A stretch of DNA of 64,000 nucleotides, taken from positions 62,001 to 126,000 of the forward strand of contig CADAGX010000007.1 of the NCBI GenBank assembly GCA_902787575.1. The letters are read 5' to 3'. Numbering within the stretch: the stretch's first letter is position 1; each line of letters opens with the position of its first letter. Below, in pieces: positions 1,115 through 57,943 of this stretch. The DNA comes from an uncultured Bacteroidales bacterium (GTDB lineage Bacteria; Bacteroidota; Bacteroidia; Bacteroidales; Bacteroidaceae). Under the pieces are notes generated by a model. It was not told the origin of the DNA. It was given only the letters and a program-made list of their open reading frames with translations, and made no database searches. A program made the position numbers and the translations under genes.

Positions 1115-1245
1115 CCACACATGGTGAAAAAACAGCCATGCGTCGCATCGCTCACAGCGACGCGTCGCGTGAACGAAAACTACACGTCGCGTGAGCCCAT
1201 GCGACGCGTGGCGTGAAACAGCATTCAGCGTAGCGTCGGAAGACC
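1115..1245. repeat. 22-bp dyad repeat array A
   Basis: Five 22-base units at 1136-1157, 1158-1179, 1180-1201, 1202-1223 and 1224-1245, with a degenerate 21-base unit before them from 1115. The best conserved part of each is CNACRYGTSGC. The first unit overlaps the unused upstream reading frame of the beta-barrel gene but not its likely coding part. The same repeat occurs at 16648, 39627, 49003 and 57834. Confidence 0.8.
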
Positions 1246-14613: not shown

Positions 14614-16620
14614 ATGAAGGACGCAGACATAGACATTTCAACGCCCGAATTTCAGAACGCGCTCTCGCTGGTACGCTTCACCAATCAGTCAATATTTTTG
14701 ACCGGAAAAGCAGGCACCGGAAAAAGCACATTCCTGAGATACGTATGCCGCGAAGTAAAGAAGAAACACGTCGTGCTCGCGCCCACCGGAATCGCTGCAA
14801 TAAACGTGGAAGGCAGCACATTGCACAGTTTCTTTAAGCTGCCTTTTCACCCGCTTTTGCCCGACGACCCGAAGTTCTCTCCCAAGAAAATTCGCGATAC
14901 GCTAAAGTATAGAAAAAATCACATAAAACTACTCAACGAAATACAGCTCATCATCATCGATGAGATATCGATGGTGAGGGCCGACATCATAGACTTCATC
15001 GACCGTGTGCTGCGCATCTACTGCCACAACATGCGCGAGCCCTTTGGCGGCAAGCAACTGCTGCTCATCGGCGACGTGTACCAACTGGAGCCGGTGGTGA
15101 AGGCCGACGAATGGGAAATCCTGTCGCACCACTACCCCAACCCATACTTCTTCTCGGCGCACGTGTTTCAGGACTTCAGCCTCGTCAGCATCGAGCTGAA
15201 AAAGGTATTCCGCCAGAAAGACGCAGGCTTTATTGCAGCACTCGACCACATCCGCTGCAATCAGGTGTCGGACCTCGAACTGCGCCTGCTCAATAGTCGT
15301 TACAGAGAAGGGCCGCCGCAGAAAGCCGAAGGACACATCAACATCCTGCTCGCCACCAGACGCGACAATGTGGACTTCATCAATCATCAAGAACTCGAGA
15401 AGCTGCCCGGCGAGACGGTGCGGCTACGAGGAGTGATAGCCGGCGAGTTCCCCGACACAGCCCTGCCGACGCTGCTCGAACTGGAGCTGAAAGAAGGCGC
15501 GCAGATAATTTTCATCAAGAACGACCCCGAGAAACGTTGGGTGAACGGTACGCTGGGCACCGTCTCCGGCATCAACGAGGAGGAATACGAATTGTATGTC
15601 GTCACCGAAGACGGGAACGAGGTTTGCGTACAGCCCGAGCGATGGAGCAACACACGCTACACCTACAACGAGCGGGAGAAGAAAATCGAAGAGAAGGAAT
15701 TGGGCACATTTACCCAATACCCCGTCCGGCTGGCGTGGGCCATCACCATACACAAGAGCCAAGGCCTCACCTTCCAGAACGTGACAATCGACTTCAGCGG
15801 TGGCACTTTCGCCGGCGGGCAGGCATACGTGGCACTGAGCCGATGCACGTCGCTCGACGGCATCACACTGTGCAAACCCCTCACGCGTTCAGACGTTTTC
15901 ATCCGCCCCGAAGTGGTGGAGTTTGCCAAACGGTTCAACAACGAGAGCGACATGCAGCGCGCCCTGCTCATCGCCAAGGCAGACAGCGAATACATGGCCT
16001 GTGCAAAAGCATTCGACCAAGGCGACATGGATGAATGCCTGAAGCACTTTTTCGTGGCCATCCACACACGATACGACATCGAGAAGCCCAACGTGAAACG
16101 CCTCATACGTCGCAAACTCGGAGTCTTCCGCCAGCTGCGCGACGAACGCGACCGTATGAAGGAAAAGCTCGACGCGCAAAACCAGAAACTGCGCAAGCTG
16201 GCCGAAGAATATCTGGCCATGGGCAACGAATGCGTCACTCAGGCGCACAACAGCAAAGCGGCGCTGGCCAACTACGGCAAGGCGCTCGAGCTGTGCCCCA
16301 CCCTGCTCGAAGCACGCATCCGACGCGGCGTCACATACCTCGACATGCGCCAGCCACAGGAAGCACTCTCCGACCTGAACGAAGCCGTTAGCCTCTCGCC
16401 ACGCTCGTTCAAGGCCGTTTACAATCGCGGACGCGTCTTTCTGTTCATGAGCCTGCCCGACGAAGCCATCAACGACCTCACGCGAGCCACGAGCCTAAAG
16501 TCCGACCACGCAAAAGCACACCAGCTGCTCGGCGACGCCTACGCCATGAAAGGCGACGAGGACACAGCAGCCATGTATTGGGAACTGGCCGAGCAATTGC
16601 GCAAGAAGGCCGGCAATTAA
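14614..16620 (+). CDS. Pif1/RecD2-like helicase with C-terminal TPR domain
   Basis: A 668-residue fusion. Residues about 20-440 are a superfamily 1B helicase with Walker A GKAGTGKST (near 31-39), APTGIAAINV (motif Ia), Walker B IIIDEISM, GDVYQLEPV (motif III) and a C-terminal VALSRCTSLDGI motif typical of Pif1/RecD-like enzymes. After a coiled-coil stretch (RQLRDERDRMKEKLDAQNQK), residues about 540-665 form three or more TPR repeats (ALANYGKALELCPT and YNRGRVFLFMSLPDEAINDLTRAT). TPRs bind proteins, so a partner is likely. The gene closes the lpx-miaA run. Confidence 0.88.
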   Translation: MKDADIDISTPEFQNALSLVRFTNQSIFLTGKAGTGKSTFLRYVCREVKKKHVVLAPTGIAAINVEGSTLHSFFKLPFHPLLPDDPKFSPKKIRDTLKYRKNHIKLLNEIQLIIIDEISMVRADIIDFIDRVLRIYCHNMREPFGGKQLLLIGDVYQLEPVVKADEWEILSHHYPNPYFFSAHVFQDFSLVSIELKKVFRQKDAGFIAALDHIRCNQVSDLELRLLNSRYREGPPQKAEGHINILLATRRDNVDFINHQELEKLPGETVRLRGVIAGEFPDTALPTLLELELKEGAQIIFIKNDPEKRWVNGTLGTVSGINEEEYELYVVTEDGNEVCVQPERWSNTRYTYNEREKKIEEKELGTFTQYPVRLAWAITIHKSQGLTFQNVTIDFSGGTFAGGQAYVALSRCTSLDGITLCKPLTRSDVFIRPEVVEFAKRFNNESDMQRALLIAKADSEYMACAKAFDQGDMDECLKHFFVAIHTRYDIEKPNVKRLIRRKLGVFRQLRDERDRMKEKLDAQNQKLRKLAEEYLAMGNECVTQAHNSKAALANYGKALELCPTLLEARIRRGVTYLDMRQPQEALSDLNEAVSLSPRSFKAVYNRGRVFLFMSLPDEAINDLTRATSLKSDHAKAHQLLGDAYAMKGDEDTAAMYWELAEQLRKKAGN

Positions 16621-16647: not shown

Positions 16648-16823
16648 CCACACATCGTTTTCCGAAAAGCCACACGTCGCATGAGCTCAAGCCAAGCGTC
16701 GCATGAGCTCACGCCAAGCGTCGCGTGAGCTCACGCCACACGTCGCGTGAACGAAAACCACGTGTGGCGTGAAAGCAAACTACACGTCCTGCGAAAGAGA
16801 ACAACACATGGCGAGAACGGAAA
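16648..16823. repeat. 22-bp dyad repeat array B (eight units)
   Basis: Eight contiguous 22-base units from 16648 to 16823 with no spacers. Units two to five are the best kept (core CACGTCGC or AGCGTCGC followed by RTGA). Later units decay. It fills much of the 417-base gap between the helicase gene and the large FAS1 gene. The rest of the gap is AT-rich and holds the promoter at 16956. Confidence 0.85.
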
Positions 16824-39448: not shown

Positions 39449-40942
39449 ATGAAACGCCTGCTACCTCTTCTGTTGCTCTGTCTGACAGCCTGCCACGAGG
39501 CGCGCCTTCCGCAAGATTACGTGGAAGACGACGTCCCACCACGCATCTATCCCGATTATGCCGATGTCACCGTCCCACCCAACATCGCACCACTGCATTT
39601 CGTGGTGGAGGACGCAGGACAGAATGCGACGTGTAGTTTTCAAAAAACTACGTGTGGCGTGAGCGATTGCGACGTGCAGTATGTGACGAAGGGACACGTG
39701 GCATCTCTCTCTGTCAAACGTTGGAAGAAACTGTGTGAAACGCCTGGCGACATCCGGGTGGACGTCTATACACAGGATGAGGAAGGTCGCTGGCACCACA
39801 AGCGCCCGTTCGCCATCCACGTCTCGCCCGACACCATCGACCCATACATAGCCTACCGCCTCATTGCGCCCTCGTATGTGACGTACGAAGACCTGACAAT
39901 CTGCCAGCGCCAGCTGTCATCGTTTCGCGAGACAGTCGTGTACGGCAACATGATAAACAGCCGCGAGGAGACGGGCCAGTGCATCAACTGCCACGCCTTC
40001 CAACAGGAAAATCCGCGCCGAATGCAGTTTCACGTCCGTCAACACATGGGCGGCACACTGCTCACTTACGACGGGCAGACAGAGAAGGTGGACCTCCGCA
40101 CAGACAGCCTCATCAGCGCCGGCGTTTACCCTGCGTGGCATCCCACTGAACCGCTCATTGCCTACAGCACGAACCGAACATTTCAGACGTTCCACACACG
40201 AGACGTACAGAAAGTGGAGGTGCAGGACGAACTGAGCGACCTCATTCTCTACGACATCACGCGCCACAAGGTGACACAGCTGCCGCACGAGGACGACTGG
40301 CTCGACTGCTTCCCCACGTGGAGCCCCGACGGCCGCTGGCTCTACTACTGCTCGGCGCACTACGAGCGCACAGACTCCGCCCTGCCACGTCAGGCCGACC
40401 TCATCCGACACTACGACCGGGTGCATTACAGCCTCTTCCGCCGGACATTCGACCCGTCGACGCAGACATTCGGGCCGCGCGAGGTAGTCTATAATGCGGC
40501 AGCCGAAGGCAAGAGCGCCACACTGCCGCGCATCTCGCCCGACGGCCGCTTTCTGATGTTCACACTTGGCAGCTTCGGCGTGTTCCACATCTGGCACACC
40601 GACGCCGACCTCCGACTAATGGACCTCACCAGCGGTGACATACGGCCGCTCGACGAACTCAACAGCCCGCAGACAGAGAGCTACCACTCGTGGAGCAGCA
40701 GCGGCCGGTGGGTGGTGTTCAGCAGCCGACGCGACGACGGCAACTTCACACGCCCGTTCTTTGCACACATCGATGCCGAAGGACACGCCTCGAAGCCTTT
40801 CGAACTGCCGTCCGACGATCCGCTTTATCACCGCCAGCTGCTCCGCAGCTACAACGTGCCGGAGTTCATCGGCGGTCCAGTACGCATCACGCCGCAGCAA
40901 CTGGCTCGCGTAATCCGCGGCAACGCCACAAAAGCACACTGA
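39449..40942 (+). CDS. PD40 beta-propeller lipoprotein with a CxxCH haem-type motif
   Basis: A 497-residue lipoprotein. The start at 39449 gives MKRLLPLLLLCLTAC (lipidation at Cys15). Residues 178-182 read CINCH, a c-type haem attachment motif. TolB/PD40-type propeller blades follow (YPAWHPTEPLIAYSTNR, FPTWSPDGRWLYYCS, LPRISPDGRFLMFT, YHSWSSSGRWVVFSSRRDD). Residues about 60-89 are encoded by the 22-bp repeat and hold three extra Cys. It follows the DUF6057 gene by two bases. Role unknown; haem binding is inferred from the motif only. Confidence 0.78.
   Translation: MKRLLPLLLLCLTACHEARLPQDYVEDDVPPRIYPDYADVTVPPNIAPLHFVVEDAGQNATCSFQKTTCGVSDCDVQYVTKGHVASLSVKRWKKLCETPGDIRVDVYTQDEEGRWHHKRPFAIHVSPDTIDPYIAYRLIAPSYVTYEDLTICQRQLSSFRETVVYGNMINSREETGQCINCHAFQQENPRRMQFHVRQHMGGTLLTYDGQTEKVDLRTDSLISAGVYPAWHPTEPLIAYSTNRTFQTFHTRDVQKVEVQDELSDLILYDITRHKVTQLPHEDDWLDCFPTWSPDGRWLYYCSAHYERTDSALPRQADLIRHYDRVHYSLFRRTFDPSTQTFGPREVVYNAAAEGKSATLPRISPDGRFLMFTLGSFGVFHIWHTDADLRLMDLTSGDIRPLDELNSPQTESYHSWSSSGRWVVFSSRRDDGNFTRPFFAHIDAEGHASKPFELPSDDPLYHRQLLRSYNVPEFIGGPVRITPQQLARVIRGNATKAH
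39627..39713. repeat. 22-bp dyad repeat array E, inside a coding region
   Basis: Units at 39627-39647 (21 bases), 39648-39669, 39670-39691 and 39692-39713 inside the PD40 lipoprotein gene. The frame stays open across it. The units share CGACGTG or CTACGTG starts with the intergenic arrays. Confidence 0.7.
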
Positions 40943-46808: not shown

Positions 46809-48941
46809 ATGATGAAACTTTCCTTCCGGCACTTTTCGATAGCAGCTGCGACGGTGCTGTCGCTGCTATTCTGCAACTGCTCCGAGAACGTAGATACCTC
46901 CGACCGCTACGTCTATAAATTCGACCTCGCGCTCTCCTACCTCGAGAAGCACCCCGCCTACAGCCAGTACGTAGAACTCATCAAGCAGACCCCCTCGTCG
47001 CTGGTCAGCCAAAGCACTGTGGCACAGCTCATCGGAGCACGCGGCCACTTCACCGTCTTTGCGCCCACCAACGAGGCCATCGACACCTTCCTCATCGAAC
47101 TCTGCCAGCGCGAGCCGGACCTGCTCACCGAACCCTCGTGGGATGCCTTTGTCAGCACAGAGAAGCGCGACTCCATACGCCGCCTCCTCGTACTCAACAG
47201 CATCATAGACTCGGGCGACATGGATGAATGCTTCATGACGTGGGACTTCCCCACCACCGACAAGGCCGAGTTCCCCATTTCGAACATGAATGACCGCAAG
47301 CTCTCCGTCTCGCTCGGAGGTCTCGACACCATACTCATCAACGGCCACAGTCCCGTCAGCCTCACACAGCGAAACATACGTGTCACCAACGGAGTGGTAC
47401 ACCAAGTCCTGCGCGTGGTGGCACCCTCCGACATCAACGCTGCCACCTACCTGCGCGACCTCATCGACAAACAGAAAGAGGGCTTCCTGGTGATGGCCAA
47501 GGCCATCGAAGCATGCGGCCTGATGGACACGCTCTCCAAGGTGCGCGACGAAGTCTACGAGGAACTTTATCTGCGCAAGCTCATCCCAGACCACTACCAC
47601 CTCTACATCGACGGGCACAACGCCACGTGGGACAACTGGACACCCCGCCACCGCCTCTACGGCTTTACCATCTTCGCAGAGACAGACGACTTCTGGCGCT
47701 CTCAGGGCCTCGACCCCAAGGCGCCCCACTCGCAGCTGCTGCCCCAGCTCGTACAGTGGATAGAGCAGAACCACCAATACTCCGAGTCCGACCAGTTCAC
47801 CACCGCCGGCACCGACTACGACTCGCCCTCGCACCTGCTCTACCAGTGGGTCACCTACCATATACTGCCCTTCCGCGCCTCGGCCGACCGTCTCGTGTTC
47901 CACATGAACGAGCTCGGCTACGACCTCCACAGCCCCTACAAGCTCTCCATCCCCATGTATGAAATATACCCCACGATGGGCAAGCGGCGCCTGCTGAAAA
48001 TCTACGAGAGCAAAGAGTCCGACGGCATCTACCTCAACCGATTCCCCGAGCTCGACAACGGCCGCCACGGCACTTACCACGAGACATCGTGCGACCCTGG
48101 CAAAGTGGGCTGCCGCGTGGACCGCGAATCCGACCAAGCCATACTCAACGAAATAGTGAACTGCTGCATCTATCCCATCGATGCGCCCCTCGCTTACACC
48201 GACCCCGTTCGCGACGACCTCGGCCGCCAGCGACTCCGTTTCGACGGCATGACCATGATGCCCGAGGCCATGAGCACCGAGATACGACTCAAGCGCTCCA
48301 CCAGTTGGGAGAACCAAGACGTCTACATCCCCTGCACCAGTATCTACAACTACTTCGAAAACATGCAGATGAACGACGAGACCGTCTTCATCTATCTCAA
48401 CGCTTACAACTACGGCTGGTGCAACCTCCATTCCGACGAGATGAAAGCCAAGGGGCGCTTCGAACTCACCTTCAAACTGCCGCCCGTGCCACGCCGCAAC
48501 ACCTACGAACTGCGATACAAGGTGCTCCCCAACGGTGACCGAGGCGTGCAGCAGTTCTACTTCGGCTCCGACCCCAACCACTTGCCTGCAGCCGGCATAC
48601 CTGTCGACCTCACAAAGGCCATCGGCAAAATGAACGTAGGCTACGAAGCCGACACAAACGATGACGACTACAACGCCGAAGTGGACAAGCAACTGCGCAA
48701 CAACCGCGTGATGAAGGGAGCACGCAGCGTACGCGGCAGCAGCGATAGCGACATCGAGCGCGACCGCGACACCAACCTGCGATACATCATCTCGCGACAG
48801 ACCATGGACCCCGACAAGACCTACTACCTCCGCATCAAGTCCGTCCTCGACTCCGACCAGAAAGAGTTCTACATGGACTACCTCGAACTCTGTCCCAAGG
48901 AAGTCTACGACAACCCCAACACACCCGAGGACATCTGGTGA
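46809..48941 (+). CDS. Two-FAS1-domain lipoprotein (paralogue of 2511-4619)
   Basis: A 710-residue lipoprotein with the same plan as the gene at 2511. The signal MMKLSFRHFSIAAATVLSLLF is followed by CNC, with lipidation at Cys22 or, more likely, Cys24. The first FAS1 signature GHFTVFAPTNEA is at residues 79-90; the second domain has FTIFAETDDFWRSQGLD and WVTYHILPF. The C-terminal beta-sandwich has RRNTYELRYKVL, and the protein ends PEDIW. Long shared stretches such as YNAEVDKQ show recent common descent. No promoter of the usual type lies in the 48-base gap upstream. Confidence 0.85.
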   Translation: MMKLSFRHFSIAAATVLSLLFCNCSENVDTSDRYVYKFDLALSYLEKHPAYSQYVELIKQTPSSLVSQSTVAQLIGARGHFTVFAPTNEAIDTFLIELCQREPDLLTEPSWDAFVSTEKRDSIRRLLVLNSIIDSGDMDECFMTWDFPTTDKAEFPISNMNDRKLSVSLGGLDTILINGHSPVSLTQRNIRVTNGVVHQVLRVVAPSDINAATYLRDLIDKQKEGFLVMAKAIEACGLMDTLSKVRDEVYEELYLRKLIPDHYHLYIDGHNATWDNWTPRHRLYGFTIFAETDDFWRSQGLDPKAPHSQLLPQLVQWIEQNHQYSESDQFTTAGTDYDSPSHLLYQWVTYHILPFRASADRLVFHMNELGYDLHSPYKLSIPMYEIYPTMGKRRLLKIYESKESDGIYLNRFPELDNGRHGTYHETSCDPGKVGCRVDRESDQAILNEIVNCCIYPIDAPLAYTDPVRDDLGRQRLRFDGMTMMPEAMSTEIRLKRSTSWENQDVYIPCTSIYNYFENMQMNDETVFIYLNAYNYGWCNLHSDEMKAKGRFELTFKLPPVPRRNTYELRYKVLPNGDRGVQQFYFGSDPNHLPAAGIPVDLTKAIGKMNVGYEADTNDDDYNAEVDKQLRNNRVMKGARSVRGSSDSDIERDRDTNLRYIISRQTMDPDKTYYLRIKSVLDSDQKEFYMDYLELCPKEVYDNPNTPEDIW

Positions 48942-49002
48942 GCCGTCCTCAGATTAGAGATTAGGAATTAGAAATCAGGGCAAGCCTAGACTATGCACTA
49001 TG

Positions 49003-49090
49003 CGACGCGTCGCATGTGCTCGAGCGACGCGTGGCAATCGATTCCGCCACACGTCGCATGTGTTCACGCCACATTAGGCACAACCAACCT
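49003..49090. repeat. 22-bp dyad repeat array C
   Basis: Four units at 49003, 49025, 49047 and 49069, each 22 bases, the last one decayed. The first three keep CGACGCGT or CCACACGT. It lies in the 807-base stretch 48942-49748 without protein genes, which also holds another repeat, the tRNA and its partial copy. Confidence 0.8.
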
Positions 49091-49131
49091 TGTCATTCTG
49101 AGGGAGCGAAGCGGAGGAAGAATCTCAAAGT
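49091..49131. repeat. Dispersed CATTCTGAGGGAGCGAAG-type repeat
   Basis: A sequence starting TGTCATTCTGAGGGAGCGAA and ending in GAATCTCAAAGTC. An inverted copy with one clear base change lies at 58041-58078. Both are intergenic, next to 22-bp arrays. Confidence 0.7.
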
Positions 49132-49474: not shown

Positions 49475-49548
49475 TGACTCCGTTGGGATTCAAACCCAAG
49501 ACCTTCAGAACCGGAATCTGACGCTCTATTCAGCTAAGCTACGGAGCC
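49475..49548 (-). tRNA. tRNA-Arg (anticodon CCG)
   Basis: A 74-base cloverleaf on the minus strand. Acceptor strands are GGCTCCG and CGGAGTC with one G-U pair and discriminator A. The D arm is AGCTTAGCTGAATAGAGC, the anticodon stem TCAGA/TCTGA with loop TTCCGGT (anticodon CCG), and the T arm TTGGGTTTGAATCCCAA. No CCA is encoded. It reads the CGG codon. Confidence 0.95.
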
Positions 49549-53141: not shown

Positions 53142-56100
53142 ATGAAAAGGAAACTTTTACTCTTCTTGCCGCTGCTGTGGTGCTTTGCCTTCACAGCAAC
53201 GAATGTGTTGGCGCAAAACGAAGGGCGCCTCGCGTTTGGAGTTATCTCCGACATCCACTTTGAGAACAATGTGGGCGAAGGGGCTATGGTGAAAGTACCG
53301 AATGCACTGAAGAACCTGACTTCGCACGGAGCTCTCGACGCGCTGGCCATCGTAGGCGACTTGGCCGACTCCGGCACCGCTGGGCAGTACGAAATGCTGA
53401 CAAGCGTCTTCACCGATGCTGCCAACTTCACGAACCCCGTGGGCACGTTCCTCTTTATGATGGGCAACCACGACAACAAGGCAGCCGACGGACAGCAGAA
53501 CTATCAGCAAGGACTGAAGGCCTTCAACGGCGGCGAGGACTATCCGCTGCATCAGTACAAGGTCATCAAGGGCTACCCCTTCATCACCATCAGCCAGATG
53601 AACTCGGCCTCGAACGATGTGTCCAATGCAGCGAACGGCACAGGAGCATATCCCGAGGAGGTAGTGCAGCAGTTGGACACATGGATGGCACAGGCCGCTG
53701 CCGAATGCCCGGGCAAGCCCATTTTCGTGTTCACACACATACCGCCACGCTGGTCGGTTTACGGCTCGTGGGTCGAGTACGAGACAGGCAACCCCTGGAC
53801 CATGAAGGTGCTCAACCCCGTGCTCAACAAGTATCCGCAGGCAGTAGTGTTTGCCGGACACAGCCACTATCCGCTGGGCGACCCGCGCAGCATACATCAG
53901 GGCGCCAATCCCAACTCCGAGCGCCAGAACTTCTACACGGTAATCAACACGGCCAGCACCACCTACTCGGAGGTGAACCCGGGCGCAGTGAATGCCGGCA
54001 TTCATCCCGAAGGCTATGCTTTTGTGACCGAAGGCATGATTGTGAGCGAACTGCCGAACGGCGACATCGACATTTGCCGCTACGACACGTATCGCAACCT
54101 CGAAATCGGCGCAGAGCACCATTGGGTGCTGAAGGCTCCGTTCGATGGTTCGATGTTTGAGTACGCCGACATCCGCGATGCAGACGACAATCCGCTGAAC
54201 GTTCCTCTCCGCGACGGACTGCCCGCTCCTGCCTTCACCAAGAGCGCAGAGATACAGGTGAAAGCATTGGCTTTCGAGGCCACGGCCCACATACCGCAGG
54301 CCACAGACAACGAGTGCGTATTCCGCTATCGCATTCGCCTCAGCCAGGACGGCTTGGTGCTCTCCGAGAAGTACATCTTCTCGCAGTTCTATCTCAACAC
54401 CGACACGCCCGACCCCATCTCTTACTTCATTTCGAACCTCACCTCCAACACGAAGTACGAGATTGAAGTGATAGCATACGACTCGTACGGCAACGCTTCG
54501 GAACCGCTCAAGAAAGCATTCAGCACGCCCGCTCCCGACGACAGCAACATACTGCCCGAACCAGACGGCAAGTGGACATTCGAGGACGCAGACAACCTGC
54601 TGAAGCCCGAGCAAGGCAGCATGACCATACTTCCCTATATCGTAGGCAAGAAGTCCATTTCGGAAGCCGAAAGTTTCGAAGCCTCAGGCATCGTGCCCGC
54701 CAGCGGACCGACCGACGACAACAAGGCCATCTTGGTGCCCCAAAATACGGCACTGAAGGTGAACCGCGTGACTGGTGGCGCCACACAGGACTACGCCATC
54801 ATGATGGACGTCAAGGTGGAGAACGCAGCACTTTACAACTCGCTGCTGCAGACCAACGCGTCCAACAACAACGACGGCGACCTCTTCATCTATCAGAATA
54901 AGATTGGCATGGGCGCCATGGGCGGCTATTTCGGCGAAATCAAGGATAATACGTGGTACCGCATCGTTATGGTGGCACGCGACGGACAGGTTTATGTCTA
55001 TGTAAACGGAGAACTTACCATCAAATGCGCCAGCCAGACGCGCTGGGAGTTAGACCCGTGGGGATTCTACTTCCTTTGCGACGAGGACGGCGAAATGACA
55101 GACACGGAAGTGGCTGAATTGGCCTTCTGGGAGAGAAGCCTCTCTGACAATCAGGTGAGAAAACTCTCGGGCCTGGACATCATCGAAGAACCGGTGGAGC
55201 CCACCGTAACGCTGAAGACTCCCATCGTGAAACTGATGGACGACGAGTTGGACTTCTCGGTGAAGGTGGAGACCAACGCACCCTTTGGTTTCGACTGCCC
55301 CGACTGGATTGAACCCGTGGATGTCGTTCCGTTTGCCGGCGAGAAGGCCTACACCTTCCGTGCACAGCCGATGGACTGGAGTGGCCGTCGCGAGGGCACC
55401 ATAGCCCTGACGGGCGAAGGCGTAGGCACACAGGAAGTGCAAGTGGTACAAGTCTTCATGGGCGAGGACATTCCCGACGCCCTGGGAGTCTGGACGTTCG
55501 ACGACACGTCCAATCTGCTGGAAAACAGCGGACTGACCTCTGTACTGTCAGGTGGCATCAAGGGGAGCGAAGGCCCTGAGCCGACACTCACTCTGGCCGA
55601 AGCCAACATCCTGCCCACCGCAGGTCCCACCGAGGAGAACGGAGCCATCAGCATCCCCAAGGACTCCTACCTCTGGCTGACACCCAACGCCGGCACCGAG
55701 ACGCTGACCGACTTCACCATCCTCTACGATATCAAGCCCTCCAACTTGGACGGCTACAAGTCGCTCTTCCAGAACGATGTTACGAACAAGGCCGACGCAG
55801 GTCTCTTCTTCAAGGGTAACCAAGTGGGACGAGGCGGTTCCTTCGGATATGTGAGCGAACTGCAACTCGACAAGTGGTACCGCCTCATCTTCGTAGTAAA
55901 GAACGGCTACGGCACGCTCTATCTCGACGGCAAGAAGATAGCCGAGAGCACCAACGCGCCAAACTATTGGCCCATCACCCTGCAGGCACTCCTCTTTGCC
56001 GACAATGACGGAGAAGAAGGACCGGTGGAGGTGGCCTCCATCCGCTTCTGGGACCTGCCGCTCTCTGAAGTCCAGGCCAAGCGACTGGGCGACGTTTACA

Positions 56101-57824
56101 AAGACGTGGAAGAATACTTCGTGGTCCACACCAAGGCTGTTCGCCTGCTCGAGAATAATGAGTTTGCCGTCACGGTGAACACCAACGTACCCTTCACCTT
56201 CGACTATCCCGAATGGATTGAGCCTGTGGACGTAGAGTTCGCCAGCGGCGAGAAGGCCTACACCTTCCGCGCTCAACCGCTCACTGAAGTAGGTCGTCGC
56301 AAAGGCACCATCAAAGTGAAGGCCGAATACTTCCCCGAAGAGGAAGTGAAGGTGGAACAAATCGTGCTGGGCGAAGACGTACCCGAAGCCACAGGCTGCT
56401 GGACGTTCGACGATCCGAACAACCTGATGGCCGGCGAAGGCATCTCCACGTTGCAACCAGCCTATAAGACCGAAGACGGACCAGCCATCACAGCAGACCC
56501 CGCAGAGGCTGGCATCACGCCCGTAGAAGGACCGCTAGAGACGAACGGAGCCGTCAGCATGCCCGTGGAAGGCTACCTGATGATGACCACCAACCTGGAT
56601 GCAACCGAACTGACTGACTTCACTGTCCTCTTCGACGTGAAGCCCGAGGCACTCCAAGGCTACCACGCACTGCTGCAGACCAACCCCAGCAACAACTCCG
56701 ACGGAGCCTTCTTCATCAAGAACGACATGGTGGGCCTCAACAACAGCGGCCTCGGATACAAGGGCCTCATGCAGCAGGGCAAGTGGCACCGCATCGTCTT
56801 CGTAGCGAAAGACGGCTTTGCATACACCTACATCGACGGAAAGCGTGTGGGACAGAGCACATCGGCCAACTTCCAGCTGTGGACCATGAAGGCACAGGCT
56901 CTGCTCTTTGCCGACAACAACGACGAGGACGGCTACAACGAGGTGGCTGAAGTACGATTCTGGGATGTGGCGCTCACAGACGCACACGTGGAACTTCTCG
57001 GCGCGGTGAAACAAGATTGGGATGACGACCCGATGGACGAGCCCGTCAGCGTATGGACATTCGACAATCCCGACGACCTGCTGGCAGGCACTGGTTCGGC
57101 CGTGCTGCGCGCAGCCGTCAAGGGAGAGGACAAGGCACCCGTTGCCACAGACGACCTGGCAGCAGCCGGCATCGTGCCCGCGACAGGTCCGACAAAGACC
57201 AACGGAGCCATCACCGTCCCCATCGACACCTACCTGCAGCTGGCTCACAACCAGGAAGGCGGCGACCAGAGAACCTTCACCTTCATGATGGATATCCGAC
57301 CCAAGCAACTCGGCATCTACAACGTGCTCTTCCAGAGCAACATGCTGAACAATACTGACGCCAGCCTCTTCATCAACAAGCAGAACAAGCTCGGCATCAA
57401 CACTGCCGGCCTGGGCTACGGCGGCGTCATCGAGGAAGGCAAGTGGCATCGCATCATCTTCGCAGTAGATGATTGCGTCATCACCACCTACATCGACGGA
57501 CAGAAGATTGGCAGCTCCACATCGGCCAACTCCGACAAGTGGATACTCCGCGACGTGGCTTACTTCTTTGCCGACGAAGACGGCGAGGAAGGCGTCGTAG
57601 ACATTGCCGAACTGCGCTACTGGAACGTAGCACTCGCAGGCATCTTCGTACAGGAACTGGGAGGCGTGGACACAGAGACATCCATCGCCGACATCCACCA
57701 GAGCCGCACCGCCGGAGCCATCTACGACCTCTCCGGACGCCGAGTGTCGAACGCCCTGAGCCCCAATACGAAGCTTGCCAAGGGCCTCTACATTGTGAAC
57801 GGCAAGAAAGTACTGATTAAGTAA
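53142..57824 (+). CDS. Secreted metallophosphoesterase with four LamG-like and two BACON-like domains
   Basis: A 1560-residue exported protein. The signal ends at VLAQ (residue 25). Residues about 30-330 are a calcineurin-like phosphoesterase with all metal motifs: SDIHF (36-40), GDLAD (72-76), GNHDN (108-112), THIPP (near 199) and GHSHYP (near 240). A fibronectin-like linker follows. LamG-like units start at about 475, 781, 1084 and 1302, each with W-TF[DE]D. BACON-like modules lie at about 690-773 and 993-1076 (FDCPDWIEPVDV, FDYPEWIEPVDV). The tail IYDLSGRRVS to GLYIVNGKKVLIK is the short C-terminal domain common on secreted Prevotella proteins. The modules suggest binding of polysaccharide or matrix while a phosphoester is cut; the substrate is unknown. 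Confidence 0.85.
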   Translation: MKRKLLLFLPLLWCFAFTATNVLAQNEGRLAFGVISDIHFENNVGEGAMVKVPNALKNLTSHGALDALAIVGDLADSGTAGQYEMLTSVFTDAANFTNPVGTFLFMMGNHDNKAADGQQNYQQGLKAFNGGEDYPLHQYKVIKGYPFITISQMNSASNDVSNAANGTGAYPEEVVQQLDTWMAQAAAECPGKPIFVFTHIPPRWSVYGSWVEYETGNPWTMKVLNPVLNKYPQAVVFAGHSHYPLGDPRSIHQGANPNSERQNFYTVINTASTTYSEVNPGAVNAGIHPEGYAFVTEGMIVSELPNGDIDICRYDTYRNLEIGAEHHWVLKAPFDGSMFEYADIRDADDNPLNVPLRDGLPAPAFTKSAEIQVKALAFEATAHIPQATDNECVFRYRIRLSQDGLVLSEKYIFSQFYLNTDTPDPISYFISNLTSNTKYEIEVIAYDSYGNASEPLKKAFSTPAPDDSNILPEPDGKWTFEDADNLLKPEQGSMTILPYIVGKKSISEAESFEASGIVPASGPTDDNKAILVPQNTALKVNRVTGGATQDYAIMMDVKVENAALYNSLLQTNASNNNDGDLFIYQNKIGMGAMGGYFGEIKDNTWYRIVMVARDGQVYVYVNGELTIKCASQTRWELDPWGFYFLCDEDGEMTDTEVAELAFWERSLSDNQVRKLSGLDIIEEPVEPTVTLKTPIVKLMDDELDFSVKVETNAPFGFDCPDWIEPVDVVPFAGEKAYTFRAQPMDWSGRREGTIALTGEGVGTQEVQVVQVFMGEDIPDALGVWTFDDTSNLLENSGLTSVLSGGIKGSEGPEPTLTLAEANILPTAGPTEENGAISIPKDSYLWLTPNAGTETLTDFTILYDIKPSNLDGYKSLFQNDVTNKADAGLFFKGNQVGRGGSFGYVSELQLDKWYRLIFVVKNGYGTLYLDGKKIAESTNAPNYWPITLQALLFADNDGEEGPVEVASIRFWDLPLSEVQAKRLGDVYKDVEEYFVVHTKAVRLLENNEFAVTVNTNVPFTFDYPEWIEPVDVEFASGEKAYTFRAQPLTEVGRRKGTIKVKAEYFPEEEVKVEQIVLGEDVPEATGCWTFDDPNNLMAGEGISTLQPAYKTEDGPAITADPAEAGITPVEGPLETNGAVSMPVEGYLMMTTNLDATELTDFTVLFDVKPEALQGYHALLQTNPSNNSDGAFFIKNDMVGLNNSGLGYKGLMQQGKWHRIVFVAKDGFAYTYIDGKRVGQSTSANFQLWTMKAQALLFADNNDEDGYNEVAEVRFWDVALTDAHVELLGAVKQDWDDDPMDEPVSVWTFDNPDDLLAGTGSAVLRAAVKGEDKAPVATDDLAAAGIVPATGPTKTNGAITVPIDTYLQLAHNQEGGDQRTFTFMMDIRPKQLGIYNVLFQSNMLNNTDASLFINKQNKLGINTAGLGYGGVIEEGKWHRIIFAVDDCVITTYIDGQKIGSSTSANSDKWILRDVAYFFADEDGEEGVVDIAELRYWNVALAGIFVQELGGVDTETSIADIHQSRTAGAIYDLSGRRVSNALSPNTKLAKGLYIVNGKKVLIK

Positions 57825-57833
57825 TCTCACACG

Positions 57834-57943
57834 CGACGCGTCGCAACGCTTCAAGCGACGTGTCGCAACTCTTCACGCGACGTGTCGCATGAGCTCATGC
57901 GACGCGTCGCATTTTTTATGCCACTGCAAGGCGTGAAAATCGC
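57834..57943. repeat. 22-bp dyad repeat array D
   Basis: Five 22-base units at 57834, 57856, 57878, 57900 and 57922, the last decayed. The third unit shows the two palindromes best: a CGACGTGTCG half and a perfect CATGAGCTCATG half. It starts ten bases after the stop codon of the metallophosphoesterase gene. No standard terminator is seen there, so the array may form the 3' end of the transcript. Confidence 0.85.

Follow-up and report, generated by a model that had tools for sequence, protein, structure and literature searches.

What a tandem repeat with a 22-bp period is doing at five separate loci in one stretch of a bacterial chromosome is the question raised by this locus. The window, that is, the whole stretch of 64,000 nucleotides that was analysed, corresponds to C7:62001-126000 of a 2.65-Mb draft genome in 34 contigs from a rumen-type member of the Bacteroidales. 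A first-pass annotation had offered three readings of the repeat: a binding platform for a dimeric protein, a cruciform-forming 3' end of RNA, or a mobile repeat family.

Five directional arrays in the window

All five arrays were recovered, at or very near the positions first reported (Table 1), and a two-unit model (42 nt) derived from the window arrays gave E-values down to 7.7e-13 within the window, which is far beyond chance. Array limits in the window were set by PWM, and the strand of each array is the direction found by EM.

Table 1. Arrays in the window (window coordinates) and HU-HIG genes in the same draft genome (contig coordinates)
Feature	Position	Strand	Structure	Context
Array 1	1130..1217	-	Four 22-bp units	Intergenic (predicted genes)
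Array 2	16664..16773	-	Five units by PWM limits; decayed units on to about 16823	Follows a PIF1-like helicase/TPR gene (14614-16620 +), 43 nt from its stop
Array 3	39621..39707	-	Four units, two strong and two weak; one 21-bp interval	Inside the frame of a gene for a lipoprotein-like beta-propeller (39449-40942 +)
Array 4	48997..49062	+	Three units	Follows a fasciclin-domain gene (46854-48941 +), 55 nt from its stop
Array 5	57828..57915	+	Four units	Begins 3 nt past the stop of a 1560-aa gene (53142-57824 +)
HU-HIG gene 1	C8:88656-89012			Array of the window motif upstream, three good units
HU-HIG gene 2	C14:1-243		Cut by contig start	Array of the window motif upstream, two good units
HU-HIG gene 3	C9:88924-89304 (L511:2925-3305)		One in-frame stop	Upstream array not found

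The period had been described as strictly 22 bases, and this holds for 142 of the 154 intervals between units in this genome; of the others, eleven are 21 and one is 44, and none is 23. Likewise, the two alternating palindromes of the first description stand in part. The consensus core GCSACRYGTSGC is a good, near-perfect dyad, while the second palindrome, CATGAGCTCATG, is idealised. The linkers are usually ATTCGYTCAC-like and less palindromic than first thought, which makes the arrays directional, so that their sequence differs between the strands and the claim of an array reading the same on both has to be given up. The gain in likelihood from assigning a direction was 317 bits, as compared to 68-77 bits in five simulated symmetric sets. 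Nearly all units of the genome have CACG, CGCG or CGTG at the centre of the core. Among 191 units, AT is the central pair in a single one; independence of the two central bases would predict about 21.

In an alignment with 20 relatives, the reading frame that holds array 3 has 7 extra residues (21 nt) at this place relative to 18 of them, and 6 and 8 extra relative to the other two; the residues neighbouring this excess also differ from the relatives. Array 5 has a copy at C1:224 (L018) in the same genome, with flanks of 57 and 41 nt that are 89-93% alike, and has apparently been duplicated along with them. Two other short repeats were seen: a 7-nt tandem repeat, TTTTGCA, at 1382-1419, close to array 1, and an interspersed repeat of about 37-40 nt at 49091-49127, copies of which flank three arrays and are 92-97% identical.

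A family of arrays across the genome

A profile search of the draft genome with the two-unit model bore out that the family extends far beyond the window. It returned 202 matches at E <= 1 (both strands counted), and at least 45 arrays with a minimum of two units were counted in 448 kb, consisting of the window and the stretches around matches. Three single-unit PWM hits are not among them. The number is a lower bound, further places having been seen with a broader search. The arrays contain 2-8 units with a mode of 4 (22 arrays with four units, 11 with five, 5 with three, 4 with six and one each with two, seven and eight).

Nearly all of the arrays are intergenic and they often follow directly after stop codons. 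Codirectional genes flank 21 of the 45, convergent genes 11 and divergent genes 9, and the remainder lie in frame (1) or at a contig end (3). Arrays between codirectional genes are mostly nearer to the stop of the upstream gene than to the start of the next. The direction of the array is independent of gene strand (6/6, 5/6, 5/4 and 5/5 for ++, +-, -+ and --, respectively). No functional enrichment was seen by eye in 37 array-adjacent proteins, with the exception of the HU-HIG proteins discussed below. Apart from a few duplicated neighbourhoods, the flanks share only short pieces, and most arrays are without a common leader or tail. In some regions (L051:5837-6080 on C22 of this genome, L099, L112, L124 and L127) two or three unrelated 22-bp motifs are clustered, and an EcoRI-type adenine methyltransferase gene adjoins an array at L020:5638-6684.

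The period is kept and the sequence changes in relatives

A model of the motif in this genome (R1) matched 4 of 40 relatives, 24 of which belong to the same genus, or 5 of 41 genomes with its own included. We rejected the idea that this rarity means an absence of arrays in the relatives, because motif-free autocorrelation revealed 22-bp arrays of other motifs, such as CCCCTAGGSGAG in G002, TAACACGTTA in G008 and AACCAGTSACTGGTT in G017, and more. With a broader three-unit model, a related core was recognised in 31 genomes out of 121 in the genus, again including the genome studied here.

At a lag of 22 and with no motif specified, 37 arrays were found in 1.08 Mb from 47 genomes of the genus. 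These came from 11 genomes, most of the others being represented by just 3-14 kb each; no lag-22 array was found in the 129 kb sampled from G004. Twelve control lags gave 0-15 arrays each, the highest two being lags 21 and 24, both multiples of 3. In five genomes, the spacing between strong cores was 22 in 189 of 191 intervals and 21 in the other two. Outside the genus, 328 kb sampled from five genomes belonging to other families within the order yielded a single weak lag-22 match.

The consensus sequences match at 14.9 of 22 positions within genomes, 10.4 between genomes and 10.3 after shuffling. Motifs are common to arrays within a genome and rarely shared between genomes, and the arrays of relatives in the genus have the same period and size. 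The first-pass annotation had named a genome with no other arrays, or relatives without the period, as the outcome that would speak against it; the opposite was observed, with the period retained and the sequence changed.

The density of arrays per 100 kb of intergenic DNA was 54 between convergent genes (7 arrays in 12.9 kb), 28 between codirectional genes (18 in 63.6 kb) and 9.5 between divergent genes (2 in 21.0 kb). At the threshold applied in these counts, the predicted coding sequence (656 kb) contained no array; the in-frame array 3 of the window falls below this threshold. In G002 and G017 taken together, only 1 of 36 arrays was divergent.

We also considered whether arrays are conserved at particular genes. 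A 22-bp array was present at the 3' end of the RNase Y gene in 5 of 29 relatives, with five different motifs, but compared to 30 of 469 background genes this gives a p-value of just 0.035, and positional conservation was rejected. At the U32 gene 1 of 29 relatives had an array; a second flag, L333 at lag 21, turned out to be a simple repeat. Homology among array-adjacent genes (4 of 12 as compared to 9 of 57 genes with hits) was not convincing.

HU-HIG genes are often preceded by arrays

When array-adjacent genes were grouped, one family was found beside arrays both in the genome studied here (G000) and in G017, and it corresponds to the Pfam family HU-HIG (PF18291). The HU-HIG protein of the present genome (167 aa) scores 78.1 bits against a curated cut-off of 26.2. 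Its AlphaFold model (pLDDT 90.4, pTM 0.65) gave as best Foldseek match the Bacteroides vulgatus structure 4fmr (4fmr_D, E 4.7e-05), followed mostly by HU/IHF entries, and the predicted fold is that of HU. A phmmer search of the protein against PDB sequences gave no match. Several HU-HIG proteins of relatives carry a C-terminal segment that looks winged-helix-like by eye; the Pfam family name includes "fused to wHTH", and no separate Pfam domain was reported for this segment. HU proteins are mostly weakly sequence-specific, which speaks against the binding platform proposed below.

Arrays of the window motif lie 57-58 nt upstream of the HU-HIG genes on C8 and C14 (Table 1), the flanks of which are 95% alike over 298 nt and hence were counted as one. 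The third gene, on C9, looks degraded from its sequence. In a first count over seven genomes, which left out five genes resembling ordinary HU (about 95 aa), a 22-bp array was located upstream of 15 of 25 HU-HIG genes and downstream of none. The survey was extended to 139 HU-HIG genes from 25 genomes of the genus, including this one. The same five genes and nine more matches that look like ordinary HU were kept out of the 139, and nine genes with less than 300 nt of upstream sequence were excluded, leaving 130.

A lag-22 array was present upstream of 61 of these 130 genes (within 600 nt), as compared to 20 of 465 ordinary predicted genes from seven genomes (within 500 nt; Fisher p 1.5e-29, which treats genes related by descent as independent). 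The fairer sample size is the number of protein clusters, and 29 of 53 clusters had at least one member with an upstream array; one cluster had arrays in all of its 15 members and the largest in 15 of 40. Control lags gave 0-5 arrays upstream of HU-HIG genes, and downstream arrays were found at 7 of 134 HU-HIG genes (600 nt) versus 30 of 469 ordinary genes (400 nt). This association, like the arrays themselves, their period and their placement at gene ends, was computed directly.

No upstream array was detected at the threshold used for the remaining 69 genes. Among them is the C14 gene, the array of which scores 25 against a threshold of 28; the C8 gene falls outside the 130 because its upstream stretch is too short. 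The draft state of the genomes may explain some of the missing arrays and matches. The upstream motifs vary widely and many are palindromic, such as TTGAATATACATGTATGTGCAA in G051, GGATAATTATCC with its flanks in G017 and AAAATCCACGTGTGGATTT in G068. The association as such could also have come about if gene and array travel together.

The motif follows the protein

Dispersed arrays resemble the arrays upstream of HU-HIG genes in the same genome. Over 22 genomes, the mean best match between the two sets was 16.94 of 22 positions, as compared to 14.54 (sd 0.24) when the pairing was permuted, and none of 5000 permutations reached the observed value. The genome's own HU-HIG set ranked first in 10 of the 22 genomes, with 1 expected (G000, G012, G017, G041, G052, G068, G074, G078, G121 and, tied, G051). 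This cognate match is thus computed for part of the genomes; in the other 12 the own set was not first, and it ranked 10th to 19th in G008, G005, G020, G069 and G100. Ten genomes contributed one dispersed array each, and two with more than 10 were sampled at 10. Dispersed arrays that had a 40-mer in common with any HU-HIG array were dropped, as were CTG-rich ones, and loci L036 and L043 of the present genome were excluded. The R2 loci had been picked for likeness to the core in this genome, which makes motifs look more alike between genomes and so biases the data against the test.

Furthermore, HU-HIG paralogs within a genome share a motif in only 2 of 102 pairs, whereas close proteins from different genomes do so in 46 of 162 pairs (still only 28%), and the remaining pairs in 22 of 1627. 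Since paralogs differ within a genome and close proteins across genomes often share, the motif goes with the protein and not with the genome.

Arrays in register with the promoter

The -7 box of the Bacteroidota is TAnnTTTG. In 22 of 62 HU-HIG operators this box is situated 120-159 nt after the start of the array, 11 of them at 138-143, so that the promoter comes immediately after the array. In another 10 of the 62 it is situated 1-40 nt before the start, which places the array over the transcription start. About 0.8 operators would be expected by chance in each range. A register was thus computed for about half of the operators, which are in part orthologs, and 30 of 62 had the box in neither range. 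The C8 gene belongs to the second kind, with the -7-like TAACTTTG directly abutting unit 1, and some 50 nt separate the end of its array from the ATG.

Alternative explanations and the spread of arrays

Whole-element copies in G017 and G002 show that arrays are copied as wholes, and the early suggestion of a mobile repeat family has to this extent been borne out. In G017, copies of one 82-bp element of four units, with the same unit order and a characteristic third unit, are located in unrelated contexts, with 14 places at 94-100% identity among the matches listed and older copies at about 80-92%. Five copies share about 192 bp including a leader and a tail, and three more share 134-159 bp; copies of the 192-bp element (L175-L182) are 90-98% alike and a transposase was not identified. 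A rigid 4-unit element in G002 gave 78 matches on both strands and 42 candidate places, 40 of which were scored, and the full frame is present in 23 of 38 distinct stretches scored. In these elements (L135-L141, L205-L234), linkers 1 and 3 are direct copies in 4 of 23 cases, with 1.4 expected. One hypothesis is that the arrays are selfish, non-autonomous REP/MITE-like elements that settle at gene ends, and that the HU-HIG gene is a source copy or hitch-hiker with no regulation involved. The array-free coding sequence would also suit such an element, but no target-site duplication was seen by eye in G017 or G002, and a purely mobile element predicts neither the promoter register nor a 22-bp spacing that is kept across unrelated motifs, so that we regard this explanation as unlikely. 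Mobilisation by a RAYT/REP system was rejected as a candidate, as Y1_Tnp (the RAYT family) was found once in the genome studied here and not in the array-bearing drafts G002, G005, G008 and G012. The sole match (G000:C1:149956-150246) is about 3 kb from an array at C1:146586-146716.

An element acting in RNA, either as a bidirectional terminator or as a hairpin at mRNA 3' ends, would account for the density gradient from convergent to divergent intergenic regions and for the rarity of divergent arrays in G002 and G017. The array ends in the present genome also tend toward an outward GCATTTT (TTTT in 20% of ends versus 6% of linkers), and in 9 of the 23 G002 elements linker 1 is the exact reverse complement of linker 3, with 2.2 expected. 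However, array direction in this genome is unrelated to gene strand, 9 of 41 arrays are between divergent genes, and the positions that would pair are mostly complementary at or below random (0.30 versus 0.43 at positions 8/15, and as random at 4/19, with a baseline that mixes array directions), all of which goes against the cruciform 3' ends proposed at the outset. Fold-back covariation, present in G002, was absent from 19 arrays of four units in this genome and was rejected. Most G002 array ends examined are without T runs, and Rfam has no family at the arrays, the only hit in the window to reach the gathering score being a tRNA at 49475-49548. We consider a role in RNA distinctly improbable. 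A functionless minisatellite grown by slippage could produce the identical neighbouring units that exist in several cases in L052 and three in L037, but not readily the same period despite unrelated sequences or the clustering of sizes at 4-5 units, and the association with HU-HIG genes already disfavours it; we find it scarcely credible. Both of these readings fit the data worse than a binding platform does. Palindromic phased units in register with a promoter would suit any dimer, and the platform might belong to another conserved dimeric regulator for which HU-HIG genes are merely frequent targets. One general regulator would give a single motif per genome, whereas the motifs of HU-HIG paralogs differ and are often common to close HU-HIG proteins of different genomes, and we hold this alternative to be very improbable.

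Comparison with known systems

In ParB/parS, MatP/matS and BldC with its direct repeats, the operators of a protein are clustered or its sites are dispersed over the chromosome. The arrays are similar in that a protein is matched by many phased or clustered sites, but differ in the several independent pairs per genome and the motif turnover between species. Within the HU/IHF superfamily, to which the partner protein is assigned by its score above the HU-HIG cut-off and its HU-like predicted fold, the difference lies in the phased palindromic arrays that are particular to each paralog.

REPs are short palindromes specific to a species, many of which have tens of copies, and those of the GTAG type are linked to a transposase gene with REP copies on its flanks (PMC3733652). 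The arrays share the first of these characteristics. Unlike REPs and REPINs, their units are direct tandem repeats with no loop and a rigid 22-bp period, and the associated protein is HU-like rather than a tyrosine transposase; Y1_Tnp was not found in several array-bearing drafts. A REP forms a hairpin with a loop and an unpaired GTAG/CGTC tag, whereas the array cores are loop-free dyads; those of the present genome hold CGTC within the dyad, and those of G002 (CCCCTAGGGG) and G017 (AACCAGTSACTGGTT) contain neither GTAG nor CGTC.

The nearest published repeat, judging from the available text of PMC4596501, is the BrickBuilt MITE of Porphyromonas gingivalis, which consists of spacerless, intergenic 23-nt tandem repeats in 19 copies of 1-22.8 units, with a leader, a tail and IS5-like TIRs (PMC4596501). 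Spacerless intergenic tandem repeats are a feature in common. Leader and tail segments are seen in some G017 copies, which share up to 193 bp with no clear TIR by eye, and most arrays of the genome studied here are without shared ones. The repeat is 23 nt there and 22 nt in the five genomes measured here. The same source mentions 22-nt repeats for P. gingivalis W83 (PMC4596501). BrickBuilt_14 (84 nt) of P. gingivalis ATCC 33277 is listed between PGN_0871 and PGN_0872, a gene on the - strand and one on the + strand, the latter given as "DNA-binding protein (PF00216)" (PMC4596501, Table 1). By analogy, its location upstream of an HU-type gene, in one of 19 elements, fits the arrangement of the HU-HIG operators described here; the available text of PMC4596501 does not comment on this neighbour.

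A putative operator system of HU-HIG proteins

Of the three original readings, a binding platform for a dimeric protein has the best support, and a candidate can now be named. We consider it probable that the arrays are tandem, helically phased operators of one autoregulated HU-HIG-type protein, to which it would bind, together with dispersed sites of the same kind. The protein encoded on C8 and C14, a member of the HU/IHF superfamily and presumably dimeric, would bind the array units with one dimer per unit, and neighbouring dimers on one helical face would cooperate. A spacing of 22 or 21 bp would be tolerated, and 23 was not seen in this genome. We infer that the protein may repress or tune its own promoter by way of the array of three units overlapping the -7 box. 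The other arrays, about 45 and mostly near gene 3' ends, could be dispersed sites that titrate the protein or anchor it at gene ends, with a roadblock, nucleoid anchoring or insulation of 3' ends as candidate roles.

Several such protein and array pairs may coexist in a genome, each HU-HIG paralog having its own array motif. From species to species, protein and motif would change jointly, with a rapid change of specificity, and the 22-bp spacing (about two helical turns) would be retained. More broadly, the findings might represent a new class of genome-wide system, in which sequence-specific proteins of the HU superfamily each have a private, 22-bp-phased palindromic array as operator and dispersed sites, the arrays spread within the genome, protein and motif co-diversify fast, and the geometry rather than the sequence is common to the species of the genus. 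This wider proposal is tentative, and we would give it slightly less than an even chance. A literature search retrieved no description of paralog-specific HU-HIG arrays, which is a weak sign of novelty as subscription journals were mostly outside its scope.

If the hypothesis is true, the HU-like HU-HIG proteins would gain a concrete and testable role with predicted target sites, and a large class of 22-bp tandem repeats would be explained as protein platforms. The arrays would then also allow the joint change of DNA specificity and of many sites at a fixed spacing to be followed in a natural series.
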